In this document: positions 1 through 43,545 of the stretch, piece by piece
Layout of the letters: the number at the start of each line of letters is the position of its first letter
Position numbering within the stretch: position 1 is the first letter of the stretch
DNA from: Prevotella sp. UBA4268
GTDB lineage: Bacteria > Bacteroidota > Bacteroidia > Bacteroidales > Bacteroidaceae
Direction: 5' to 3'
Assembly (NCBI GenBank): GCA_002395135.1
Contig: DGWC01000066.1
Span: forward strand, 1-47,424
Length of the DNA: 47,424 nucleotides
Position numbers and translations under genes: made by a program
The notes under the pieces: generated by a model
Told to the model about the DNA's origin: nothing
What the model saw: the letters and a program-made list of their open reading frames with translations, nothing else
Database searches by the model: none

Positions 1-561
<561 letters not shown>

Positions 562-594: not shown

Positions 595-634
595 CGGGAG
601 AACCTGCGAAAGTAGGCTCTCCCGTGTTGTTTTA
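595..634 (+). terminator. Probable intrinsic terminator of clpB
   Basis: A GC-rich stem CGGGAGA (595-601) pairs with TCTCCCG (618-624). Inside it, CCTGC and GTAGG flank a GAAA tetraloop, and a T-rich stretch follows. It lies 34 bases after the clpB stop codon. Confidence 0.7.
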
Positions 635-671: not shown

Positions 672-803
672 GTAAATTATATTAATTTGCTGCGCAATTT
701 AATGTAATTTGAAAAGTAAATTAATGTAATTTGCACGGTAAATTAATATAATTTACTTTTCAAATCAATTTGATCTATCATTCAAATCAATATGATTTGC
801 TGA
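672..803. repeat. 22-bp-period tandem array of 15-nt dyads, six units
   Basis: Six consecutive units of exactly 22 bases start at 672, 694, 716, 738, 760 and 782. Each has a roughly 15-nt inverted repeat of form 6-3-6 and a 7-nt spacer. Dyad examples are AAATTA-TAT-TAATTT (unit 1), AAATTA-ATG-TAATTT (unit 3), AAATTA-ATA-TAATTT (unit 4) and AAATCA-ATA-TGATTT (unit 6). Units 2 and 5 are imperfect. Spacers vary. The array is AT-rich, has no coding potential, and lies between the clpB terminator and the glutamine synthetase promoter. Its function is unknown. Confidence 0.8.
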
Positions 804-964
804 AGCGTTCCGATGCTTTGCTCCGAAAAGAGTGCCTGTTTCGCGGCGGCATTCTCATGCTTTTTCACGGGCAATGCGTTACTCTAATCAGCAGAAGGCA
901 CCGCCGATGCCGGCACGGCCTTTTTTCCTTTTATGCATAAATTATGCAAAAAACGGGTGTTCTT

Positions 965-996
965 TTTGGTGCTGTTCCCTTTTTTATATATCTTTG
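965..996 (+). promoter_or_regulatory. Bacteroidota sigma-ABfr-type promoter of the glutamine synthetase gene
   Basis: The -33 element TTTG (965-968) and the -7 element TATCTTTG (989-996) are separated by 20 bases, matching the Bacteroidota primary promoter consensus. Transcription should start near 1003, giving a leader of about 40 bases before the ATG at 1045. Confidence 0.8.
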
Positions 997-1044: not shown

Positions 1045-2550
1045 ATGACAGACCCCATCATTGCAATGAATGCCAACCCCGTGGTGGCCTTCTTGCAGAA
1101 ATCGCCCGAGTCATTTACAAAGGCAGACATCATCCGCTACATCGAGAAAAATGAAATCAAAATGGTGAATTTCATGTATCCCGGTGGCGACGGAAAACTG
1201 AAAACACTCAACTTCGTCATCACCAACATGGCCTATCTCGACACCATCCTCACATGCGGTGAGCGCGTCGACGGCAGCAGCCTCTTCTCGTTTATCGAGG
1301 CAGGCAGCAGCGACCTCTATGTGCTGCCGCGCTACTGCACCGCTTTCGTAGACCCCTTTGCCGAGATTCCCACGCTCTGCATGCTCTGCTCTTATTTCGA
1401 TAAAGACGGCAATCTGCTGGCCAGTTCGCCGGAGAACACACTCGCCAAGGCATCGCGCGCCTTCACCGAGGTGACAGGCATGGAGTTCCAGGCCATGGGC
1501 GAACTGGAATACTACGTGATTTCCGAGGACGAGGAACTCTATCCCGCCATCGACCAGCACGGCTATCATGAGTCGGCTCCCTATGCCAAGACCAACCTCT
1601 TCCGCCAACAGTGCATGCAATACATTGCGCAGGCAGGCGGACAGATTAAATACGGCCACTCTGAGGTGGGCAACTTCAAGCAAGAAGGATTGGTGTACGA
1701 ACAGAACGAGATTGAGTTCCTGCCCGTGCGCGTGGAGGAGGCTGCCGACCAGTTGATGCTGGCCAAATGGATCATCCGCAACCTGGCCTACGAATATGGT
1801 TACAATGTTACCTTCGCTCCGAAGATTACCACCGGCAAGGCTGGCAGCGGACTGCACATCCACATGCGCATAGTGAAAGACGGACGGAACATGATGCTCA
1901 GCAACGGCTCTCTCAGCGAAGATGCGCGCCGCATGATTGCCGGTATGATGGAATTGGCACCCAGCATCACTGCCTTCGGCAACAAGAACCCCACCAGTTA
2001 TTTCCGCCTGGTGCCGCATCAGGAAGCACCCACCAACGTTTGCTGGGGCGACCGCAACCGCTCCGTGCTGGTGCGTGTGCCGTTAGGATGGACCGCCGAT
2101 GCCGACATGTGCTGCATTGCCAATCCGCTGGAGCAGCCGAGCCATATCGACAAGACCATGAAGCAGACCGTGGAGATGCGCTCGCCCGACGGCAGTGCCG
2201 ACCTCTATCAGTTGCTGGCCGGGCTCTGTGTGGCCTGCCGTCACGGCTTTGAGATGCAGAACGCGCTCGAACTGGCAGAGAAGACCTATGTGAACGTGAA
2301 TATCCACGACGCTGCCAATGCCGACAAACTGGCGCAGTTGGCACAACTGCCCGACAGTTGTGTGGCATCGGCCGACTGTCTGGAGCGTCAGCGTGCCGTG
2401 TTCGAAGAGCGCGGCGTGTTCAGCAAGGCGATGATCGACGGCATCCTGCAACAACTGCGCGCCTTCAACGACCAGACACTGCGACGCGACATCGAGCACA
2501 ATCCCGAGGAAATTCAACAACTCGTGGAAACCTATTTCCACTGCGGATAA
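1045..2550 (+). CDS. glnA: Glutamine synthetase family protein (type I-like)
   Basis: Glutamine synthetase condenses glutamate and ammonia using ATP, in the cytoplasm. The protein has 501 residues. The N-terminal beta-grasp part (about 1-110) leads into the catalytic domain, with metal and substrate signatures GELEYYV, HSEVGNFKQE, a KAGSGLHIHM histidine motif, NPTSYFRLVPHQEAP and the RNRSVLVRVP arginine motif. The length fits GS type I rather than the roughly 700-residue GSIII common in this phylum. No conserved adenylylation loop could be confirmed by eye. The start at 1045 fits the promoter and the family's N-terminus. It is monocistronic, with its own promoter and terminator. The upstream 22-bp array could affect its expression, but that is inference. 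Confidence 0.88.
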   Translation: MTDPIIAMNANPVVAFLQKSPESFTKADIIRYIEKNEIKMVNFMYPGGDGKLKTLNFVITNMAYLDTILTCGERVDGSSLFSFIEAGSSDLYVLPRYCTAFVDPFAEIPTLCMLCSYFDKDGNLLASSPENTLAKASRAFTEVTGMEFQAMGELEYYVISEDEELYPAIDQHGYHESAPYAKTNLFRQQCMQYIAQAGGQIKYGHSEVGNFKQEGLVYEQNEIEFLPVRVEEAADQLMLAKWIIRNLAYEYGYNVTFAPKITTGKAGSGLHIHMRIVKDGRNMMLSNGSLSEDARRMIAGMMELAPSITAFGNKNPTSYFRLVPHQEAPTNVCWGDRNRSVLVRVPLGWTADADMCCIANPLEQPSHIDKTMKQTVEMRSPDGSADLYQLLAGLCVACRHGFEMQNALELAEKTYVNVNIHDAANADKLAQLAQLPDSCVASADCLERQRAVFEERGVFSKAMIDGILQQLRAFNDQTLRRDIEHNPEEIQQLVETYFHCG

Positions 2551-5040: not shown

Positions 5041-5057
5041 TTGTTTTTATTTTACTC

Positions 5058-5126
5058 ACTCAAGTTTCTGAAGTAGTTAAGTAGTCAGTAGTTAAGTAGT
5101 TAAAGCCAAATGTATGGAGACAAAAT
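5058..5126. repeat. Truncated copy (69 bp) of a dispersed foldback element
   Basis: These 69 bases match 43364-43432 with a single substitution. They contain the repeated GTAGTTAAG words and the end TGGAGACAAAAT. Only the left part of the 190-bp element at 43356-43545 is present: the outer bases of the left terminal repeat and the whole right arm are missing. Confidence 0.9.
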
Positions 5127-5247
5127 GAATGACAAAAATCAATAAGATAGTGACGATAAATGTAATATATTTTTATTTCATTTGATAAATAATGTTAATT
5201 ATTGTGTGCTTTCGTTGATTAAATAATGCTGAACAAAAGAAATAATG

Positions 5248-37664: not shown

Positions 37665-38147
37665 TCATTCCTCGTCTTCTACAGGAATGCCGGCAATTGA
37701 CAACTGGCGGTCGAAAGCCGAGCCAAATGAGATGATGGTTTCGCTGCGGGCCAGTCCTAAAGGCTGAAGTTTGTCGTGGATGATATTCAGCAGATGATGA
37801 TTGTTCAACGCATATATCTTGATGAACATATCATAGTCGCCTGTCGTATAGTGGCATTCCACCACTTCCGGAATGTTGCGCAGTGCATCGACCACAGAGT
37901 CAAAATCTTCCGGATTCTTCAGATTCAGCCCTACGTAGGCACACGTTTCATACCCAACACGTTCTGGATCGATTACAAACTGCGAGCCTTTGAGAACGCC
38001 AAGATTGTTCAACTTCTGAATGCGCTGATGGATGGCAGCCCCGCTAACGTTACACACACGTGCCACTTCCAAGAATGGAATTCTGGCATCTTCGGCGATA
38101 AGCCTTAGAATTTTCTTGTCAAGTAAATCTAAACTGTGATGTGCCAT
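37665..38147 (-). CDS. Lrp/AsnC family transcriptional regulator
   Basis: Lrp/AsnC proteins bind DNA as multimers and respond to amino acids. I start at 38147 (MAHHSLDLLDKKILRLI) since the longer frame runs through the promoter at 38174-38205. The protein has 160 residues. An N-terminal helix-turn-helix spans about 8-55 (VARVCNVSGAAIHQRIQKL). The C-terminal RAM ligand domain has YVGLNLKN, VVECHYTTGDYDMFIKIYA and a terminal GSAFDRQLSI. It has its own strong promoter. The regulated genes are unknown; autoregulation would be typical of the family. Confidence 0.93.
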   Translation of the reverse strand: MAHHSLDLLDKKILRLIAEDARIPFLEVARVCNVSGAAIHQRIQKLNNLGVLKGSQFVIDPERVGYETCAYVGLNLKNPEDFDSVVDALRNIPEVVECHYTTGDYDMFIKIYALNNHHLLNIIHDKLQPLGLARSETIISFGSAFDRQLSIAGIPVEDEE

Positions 38148-38173
38148 TTTTATGTTTTTTCTGTTCCTATTTG

Positions 38174-38205
38174 CAAAGATAACATTTTTTTTCCAAAACA
38201 ACAAA
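38174..38205 (-). promoter_or_regulatory. Promoter of the Lrp-family gene
   Basis: On the minus strand, TTTG (38202-38205), 20 bases, and TATCTTTG (38174-38181) fit the consensus exactly. It fixes the start at 38147. Confidence 0.85.
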
Positions 38206-42610: not shown

Positions 42611-43020
42611 TCGTTTTTAATTGATTAAAGGTTTTCGCCCATTTAAACGCGCCCTTTGAATGAATCTTGCACGCAGAAAGTGTGTTTTTCTCGTGAAAAC
42701 TAACTTTTTTAGCATGAGTTCGAGAGGTAAGTCGCAGCAAAGAGCCATTTTTTTTCGCTGATGTCAAGACTCACTGACGTCTTTTCGTGCGGCCATTCAT
42801 GATAAGGCAGGACCGGCGAAACCGAGCGGTTCTTGTGCATGAAATTGTCATGGAAATTCTGAATTAATGGCTCTCATACGGCCAGTGGTGGCCACGGACA
42901 ATCAATTGGGCGCGAAATACGCGAATTATAGAACTCTTCATATAACTCGTTGATTAATAATTGATTATGGCGGAAGCAGTTTTTCCATGGACGAGGAAAT
43001 CAGGTTTTTGCTGGAAAAAA

Positions 43021-43130
43021 CATAGGTTTTGGGTTGCAAAAACATAGTTTTTGAGGTGCAAAACCATAGTTATTGGGCAGTGAAACCATAGTTTTTGAAG
43101 GGTAAAAGCATAGGTTTTGCATGGCGAAAT
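43021..43130. repeat. 22-bp-period tandem array, five units plus degenerate flank
   Basis: Five consecutive units of exactly 22 bases start at 43021, 43043, 43065, 43087 and 43109. Each begins CATAG and has a run of T, then G, then an A-rich end. The best unit (43043) holds the dyad TTTTG-AGGTG-CAAAA (15 nt) plus a 7-nt spacer. A related but degenerate unit precedes it (42999-43020). Fixed positions are the CATAG, the TTTTG and the final AAA; the middle varies. Confidence 0.85.
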
Positions 43131-43355: not shown

Positions 43356-43545
43356 ATATTATAACTCAAGTTTCTGAAGTAGTTAAGTAGTCAGTAGTTA
43401 AGTAGTTAAAGCCAAATGTCTGGAGACAAAATATCAGCAAACCAAGTAATGGCTTCACTACTGACCGAAGGACGAGCGAAGCGATCACTACTTAACTTCT
43501 AAACTACAAAGAAGTTGAGCGAATGCGAAACTTGAATTATAATAT
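43356..43545. repeat. 190-bp foldback (MITE-like) element with 19-bp terminal inverted repeats
   Basis: The first 19 bases (43356-43374, ending CTCAAGTTTC) are the reverse complement of 43527-43545 with one mismatch. Inside, GTCAGTAGT pairs with ACTACTGAC and GTTAAGTAGT with ACTACTTAAC, so most of the element can fold into one long stem. Positions 43364-43432 recur at 5058-5126 with one change. It has no coding capacity and lies about 100 bases upstream of the lipoprotein-sigma operon. Confidence 0.85.

Follow-up and report, generated by a model that had tools for sequence, protein, structure and literature searches.

A 22-bp dyad array between clpB and a glutamine synthetase gene belongs to an intergenic element dispersed through the genome of a rumen Prevotella

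Contig DGWC01000066.1 of Prevotella sp. UBA4268 belongs to a draft genome (G000) of 3.15 Mb in 108 contigs that is 84.7% complete. We analyzed this contig (C104) over its full 47,424 nucleotides, which we call the window. An array of short inverted repeats lies between the 3' end of clpB and a glutamine synthetase (GS) gene whose product has its closest named records mostly in rumen Prevotella. The features that bear on the array are as follows.

1..561, plus strand: 3' end of clpB (Pfam ClpB_D2-small, AAA_2)
595..632, plus strand: candidate intrinsic terminator of clpB, a hairpin GGGAGAACCTGC..TAGGCTCTCCC followed by a T-rich stretch (by eye; probable)
674..754, no strand assigned: canonical core of four AT-rich (AT) dyads, at 674, 696, 718 and 740, with inner spacers GCTGCGC, GAAAAGT and GCACGGT
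762..798, no strand assigned: two extra AT dyads, subtype AAATCA...TGATTT, sharing the 22-bp register (dyad scan)
806..864, no strand assigned: three weaker flanking units, at 806, 828 and 850, in register and resembling the GC-richer B units that flank other copies (phase and half-site resemblance)
989..996, plus strand: TATCTTTG, candidate -7 box, some 190 bp past the array (by eye)
1045..2550, plus strand: glutamine synthetase gene (Pfam Gln-synt_C, Gln-synt_N)
37665-38204, minus strand: Lrp/AsnC-family regulator gene (Pfam PF01037, PF13404)
43016..43118, no strand assigned: second array, five 22-bp dyads of the GAAACCATAGTTTTT / AAAACATAGTTTT type, a different family (dyad scan)

The array lies beyond the probable clpB terminator at 595..632. 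The box at 989..996 resembles the consensus of the Bacteroidetes -7 box. An Rfam search of the window returned tRNA only, with no match to the array above the gathering score.

The six 15-nt dyads of the array start at 674, 696, 718, 740, 762 and 784, with every step equal to 22 bp, and span 674-798. Four of the six are perfect 6-3-6 inverted repeats, and the other two have one mismatch. A sequence-only reading of this DNA had described six 22-bp units with internal dyads upstream of GS, and these proved to be real: at lag 22, the intergenic region between clpB and GS had a dyad-chain score of 13.0, and the highest of 1000 dinucleotide shuffles scored 4.5. When the AT-rich array itself was shuffled 300 times, the top score over lags 16-30 was 5.5. 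The same reading had reported two other arrays in the window, one of which stands, at 43016-43118, while no further one appeared at the thresholds used. A requirement for four consecutive dyads with at least 20 of 24 pairs, applied to the window over lags 16-30, returned lag 22 alone and the GS-upstream array alone. The units at 806, 828 and 850 pair weakly (1-3 of 7 pairs), and the B-unit pattern that they resemble is itself drawn from 80 flanks.

The second array (43001-43125) represents a dispersed family of its own, with matches in 5 of 20 sampled stretches of this genome (L031, L036, L041, L043 and L045). Another dispersed repeat, about 70 bp long (CTCAAGTTTCTGAAGTAGTTAAGTAGT...), lies in the window at 5056-5130 and 43364-43432; these two copies are 98.6% identical, and the sampled stretches L049 and L031 have it as well.

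We scanned for the architecture with a score based on self-complementarity alone, applied to the window plus 20 stretches chosen by position (447 kb; 9 of the 20 stretches, L031-L050, contain between 2 and 215 N letters each). At lag 22 this blind scan detected 18 chains, and the other ten lags from 17 to 27 had none; at a looser threshold there were 24 chains at lag 22 against one elsewhere, at lag 25. Another form of the scan gave matches at lags 33 and 44 too, 44 being twice the period and 33 being one and a half times the period, as dyads centered on the spacers would give. Among 80 GS-carrying contigs of related bacteria (682 kb), seven lag-22 chains marked six loci, one of them in two phases, and the other lags from 16 to 30 yielded one chain each at 18 and 27 and otherwise none. 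No lag-22 chains were seen in 300 kb of three complete genus genomes, at 15 other GS loci of the genus (65 kb, about 1.5 kb per side), across 20 genus genomes (229 kb), or across samples of 40 other families (520 kb). Given these empty samples, the lag-22 architecture is patchy rather than general.

The array upstream of GS is not private to this gene: it is a member of an intergenic repeat dispersed through the genome of this rumen Prevotella. A BLAST search of positions 660-810 against the same genome gave at least 91 matches with both strands counted, as seen in the best 40 of 82 candidates. An exact pattern describing two neighboring AT dyads occurs 180 times in G000, 105 times in G006, the closest relative among the genomes searched, and 37 times in G216. 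In all, 8 of 299 genus genomes, G000 included, contain this pattern, with a single pair in each of G035, G047, G187 and G244 and two in G339, and reversed-pattern controls gave 0. When the spacing was left free between 17 and 29 bp, it was exactly 22 bp at 26 of 27 plus-strand places, which were the first listed per genome and include several neighboring pairs of one array; the sole exception, in G187, was 25 bp. The claim that the spacing stays constant while the dyad sequence changes is upheld within the genome, between species and between families.

The usual number of dyads per module is four. Exactly four AT dyads were present in 33 of 43 modules in G000, 28 of 33 in G006 and 10 of 12 in G035, counts for which detection required at least three dyads. 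With no minimum set and at most two mismatches allowed per dyad, the position-chosen sample and the window together contained one chain of two dyads, two of three, 14 of four, one of five and one of six, so that four-dyad chains made up 14 of the 19 multi-dyad chains. The sample also contained 110 single dyads, mostly attributable to chance (a local shuffle gives 73). The spacers, as read from the alignment, recur by position: (G)AAAAG, CTGAG, AAAAG, CACGG, then CTGAA or CTTTTC. CRISPR arrays combine near-identical repeats with long unrelated spacers, whereas here, on reading the units, the dyads differ and the 7-nt spacers recur.

The dyad score, averaged over modules, has maxima at 22, 33, 44, 55 and 66 bp outside the core and has reached background some 99 bp out in G000 and some 77 bp out in G006, the peak at 66 bp having a z score of 9.2 in the former and 7.9 in the latter. 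In the G035 flanks the sole signal, at 22 bp, is weak and not significant (z 2.3). Column composition over 80 flanks places information in the three outer units, weakly in the fourth, and little from the fifth outward. From the phased peaks and this composition, the typical element here consists of three GC-richer dyads, four AT dyads and three more GC-richer dyads in one 22-bp register, with a core of about 90 bp and a total length of about 220 bp with flanks.

None of 88 modules lay inside an open reading frame as predicted with a simple ORF caller. The genes flanking the 43 modules of G000 were co-directional in 19 cases, convergent in 12, divergent in 9 and not determined in 3, and 26 of 82 determined modules, about a third, lay between convergent genes. 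We considered enrichment between convergent genes and rejected it, as gap counts show no strong orientation preference: among gaps of at least 200 bp in the sample, those with a module were co-directional in 9 cases, convergent in 5 and divergent in 2, and those without were 30, 13 and 19, respectively. No flanking promoter would be expected between convergent genes.

We compared 32 module loci of G006 with the available stretches of G000. Six G006 sites had flanks matching the position-chosen sample, and at five of the six a module lay in the same gap of G000. By eye, the module orientation in these five shared gaps was the same in one, opposite in three and mixed in one. This pattern fits repeated homogenization or re-insertion at permissive places, a suggestion and no more, since long gaps are limited in number and the comparison started from the G006 modules. 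A further orthologous pair, L008 and L180/L197, had totals of nine and six AT dyads. Between clpB and GS, G006 has other genes and no AT module, and a short array of another type lies about 0.8 kb upstream of its GS gene.

An AsnC-family gene on another contig of G000 (C85; L355, 1457-2177) is divergent from a gene of the methionine synthase type (product assigned by eye), and an AT module follows the 3' end of the AsnC-family gene at a distance of about 165 bp. Nothing clear was found in the region upstream of this gene, and it was set aside as a partner of the module because G006 has no such neighbor at that place.

Of the six loci found among the GS-carrying contigs, one (L051) matches G006, and four of the other five, L072 excepted, were taken to their own genomes. 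These four other Prevotella-group genomes (G100-G103) each have dispersed families built on other dyads with the 22-bp period kept. In G100 (L069), the best 40 of 139 candidates are all 96-100% identical, and the element has five dyads, placed centrally in about 500 bp of conserved sequence (10 of 21 loci compared). No convincing end repeats were found for this element, in an alignment where some loci were of mixed orientation and the boundaries were rough. Copies of the G100 repeat (for example, L226-L245) are near-identical, about 500 bp long and often at contig ends, and for the latter reason the repeat probably breaks the assembly. In G101, Prevotella conceptionensis (L128), 13 of 14 loci examined had 4-6 strong dyads within conserved flanks (best 40 of 257 candidates). 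In G103 (L054; best 40 of 84 candidates), all 12 copies examined had five dyads by eye, and automatic chaining of the same 12 copies counted five dyads in 7, six in 3, and seven and eight in one copy each. G102 (L091) gave 11 candidates, and dyad number ranged from 3 to 6 among the eight examined. By eye, the dyads of these four families are unlike those of the window and unlike each other, apart from the outer letters of the G102 dyads (AAATT...AATTT), which resemble the window's.

One explanation of the dyads is that their symmetry is kept for base pairing, as RNA hairpins or DNA cruciforms, and the sequence-only reading had likewise proposed that compensating changes on both sides maintain it. 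The array does fold more stably than its shuffles (z -7.0 as RNA, -5.4 as DNA), and folds of this strength are expected of any array of palindromes. Among 170 AT dyads, however, mean pairing was 6.08 of 7, against 6.09 when right halves were shuffled among dyads, and the values for the 40 distinct AT dyads were 5.70 and 5.71. With pairs 1-4 and 6 near-invariant, this test rests mainly on pairs 5 and 7. Pair 5 (T-A 91, T-G 32, C-A 26, C-G 19 and other 2 among the 170 dyads) shows a slight excess of pairing (z +2.1; odds ratio 2.1; Fisher P 0.058), and pair 7 shows a deficit (z -3.5). In unit 3, oriented across 33 modules, the mismatch C.A (15) exceeds C-G (1), the remainder being T-A (13) and T.G (4). 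G.T and A.C mismatches are similarly numerous, a comparison that is uninformative on an RNA role because strands are mixed. The GC-richer flanking dyads behave differently: pairing in 227 distinct B dyads was 3.35 of 7 against 3.07 (sd 0.08) when shuffled, with the outer four pairs at expectation and the inner pairs above it (pair 7, 0.515 versus 0.39, z 4.2), and the third B unit alone gave a z score of 5.2. Pair 7 of the G103 family is also paired above its shuffles (z 2.7). Symmetry is therefore matched near the center of the B dyads, and the AT dyads show no such matching. Some symmetry constraint exists, given the pair 7 excess in the B dyads and in the G103 family; the idea of compensation finds no support in the AT dyads and is not wholly wrong for the inner pairs of the B dyads. 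A long hairpin joining unit 1 with 4 and unit 2 with 3 was tried and rejected, as in neither of two genomes did whole units pair more often than expected by chance: middle triplets were complementary at frequencies of 0.18 (units 1-4) and 0.03 (units 2-3) in 33 modules, where 0.20 and 0.18 were expected, and in G006 at 0.29 and 0.04 in 28 modules, where 0.38 and 0.23 were expected. Since the window array also lies past the probable clpB terminator, we consider selection for base pairing improbable despite the strong predicted folds and the matched inner pairs.

Still less probable is that the array serves as an operator for a regulator of GS. Its place about 190 bp upstream of the promoter-like box of this gene and the presence of an Lrp/AsnC-family gene in the window would suit such a role, and the description of the array as upstream of GS is correct as to position. 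That position looks incidental, however, since the module is dispersed (43 places in G000, of which 12 are between convergent genes) and the closest relative has none between its clpB and GS genes, and for these reasons we set the operator aside as the main reading; nor was a 22-bp array present at any of 15 other GS loci of the genus (about 1.5 kb each side). We give least credence to REP/BIME elements mobilized by a RAYT (Y1) transposase. The modules resemble them in being many-copy intergenic palindromes, dispersed through the genome (PMC3733652), and the carrier G006 has one match to the Y1 transposase family (Y1_Tnp, PF01797), as does G028. The available text of that survey, however, gives REP elements spacers of variable length, tagged ends and Y1 transposases, whereas here the lattice is exactly 22 bp, no GTAG or CGTC tag was seen by eye, and no PF01797 match was found in G000 (84.7% complete) or in the carriers G035 and G047.

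Among published elements, the nearest that we found is BrickBuilt, a minisatellite MITE from Porphyromonas gingivalis (Klein et al. 2015, PMC4596501), as described in the accessible part of that paper: a 23-nt unit repeated 1 to 22.8 times between a leader and a tail. Both are dispersed, intergenic elements of Bacteroidales with a short tandem core, the BrickBuilt text mentions short stem loops arising from dyad symmetry, as here, and the conserved flanks around the repeats in the G100 and G101 families add to the likeness. The two differ in that the unit here is 22 nt, lag 23 giving 0 chains, and in that the number here is mostly exactly 4; the accessible text describes no exact dyad lattice. 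Three of the four BrickBuilt marks that we looked for were absent, and intergenic placement was present (0 of 88 modules in an ORF). The BrickBuilt terminal sequence GAGACCTTTGCA was sought within 350 bp of the 43 modules, where the best match had one mismatch in one case, two in one case and three or four in 41; one shuffle control per module gave two mismatches in one case, three or four in 41 and five in one. Matches resembling GAGACCTTTGCA in the window numbered 5 against 4.66 expected, the level of chance. As for a leader or tail of the BrickBuilt type, columns farther out than the phased flanking units carry little information in our family. The same text also mentions 22-nt tandem direct repeats in P. 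gingivalis W83, giving no sequence; these are of equal unit length and from the same order of bacteria. Within the literature covered, which left out most subscription papers, only papers on Porphyromonas MITEs and the REP survey were relevant to such arrays in Prevotella or Bacteroidetes.

The BrickBuilt precedent bears directly on the main rival explanation, a passive minisatellite MITE with no bound protein, shaped by slippage and quasi-palindrome correction and tolerated between genes. The conserved flanks around the arrays of the dispersed G100 and G101 families speak for it, as do the nine versus six AT dyads at an orthologous site, the orientation that differs at 3 of 5 shared sites (judged by eye in a position-chosen sample), and the 3 to 6 dyads among eight copies in G102. 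Against it are the usual four dyads in three species, the continuation of the 22-bp register into flanking dyads of other sequence and the single period common to different families. Passive spread explains dispersal, but it does not easily explain the usual number or a register common to different dyads, and we hold it to be possible but on the unlikely side.

The reading that we prefer, at a probability of roughly 0.55, is a lineage-specific repeat of the MITE kind, with a core in which putative dimer sites form a lattice along one DNA face. Sites on one face of the DNA are the simplest reading of the 22-bp period. The two-turn spacing, AT dyad halves that need not match, the usual number of four and the tolerance of the lattice for changes in dyad sequence all fit dimer sites. 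Most likely, a protein dimer would recognize each dyad as a degenerate site, and the fixed 22-bp spacing would place dimers on one DNA face, such that several could bind together. Four dyads would suit an octamer of four dimers that wraps or stiffens DNA in the manner of Lrp/AsnC proteins, and the element itself may have been spread or homogenized in a MITE-like way, by copying or gene conversion. Among the points against this reading are the above-shuffle pairing of the B dyads and of pair 7 in G103, the slight excess at pair 5 of the AT dyads, the non-significant flanks of G035, the stable predicted folds, and the roughly one third of modules that lie between convergent genes.

By analogy, Lrp-like proteins offer the closest working model, four dyads equaling four dimers. 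Their sites are described as degenerate, imperfect palindromes of 13-17 bp with centers two or three helical turns apart, and their octamers are described as wrapping DNA, with relatives of BarR having 4-5 sites per octamer (available text of PMC2995911 and PMC10201364). The 15-nt dyads spaced at 22 bp here follow this rule for sites as stated in the accessible part of PMC2995911. The Lrp/AsnC arrays in these sources are single promoter regions, whereas here the lattice is copied genome-wide. Each of the 10 genomes searched has PF01037 (Lrp/AsnC), even where the sampled stretches showed no array.

A bolder proposal is that Prevotella-group chromosomes repeatedly evolve, starting from unlike sequences, dispersed two-turn dyad lattices of near-fixed number, which would act as platforms where an octameric protein wraps DNA and organizes the chromosome or insulates neighboring genes. 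Between lineages, the dyads and the specificity of the protein would turn over, and the geometry would stay fixed. We regard this proposal as tentative and rather doubtful. To our knowledge, little is known of the nucleoid proteins of Prevotella. If a protein does bind these lattices, they would represent a natural repeated experiment in selection of DNA geometry rather than sequence, and would offer a handle on the organization of the Prevotella chromosome. If no protein binds, the common 22-bp period and near-fixed unit number would need a copy mechanism that counts. Either way, arrays of this kind are easily mistaken for local operators.
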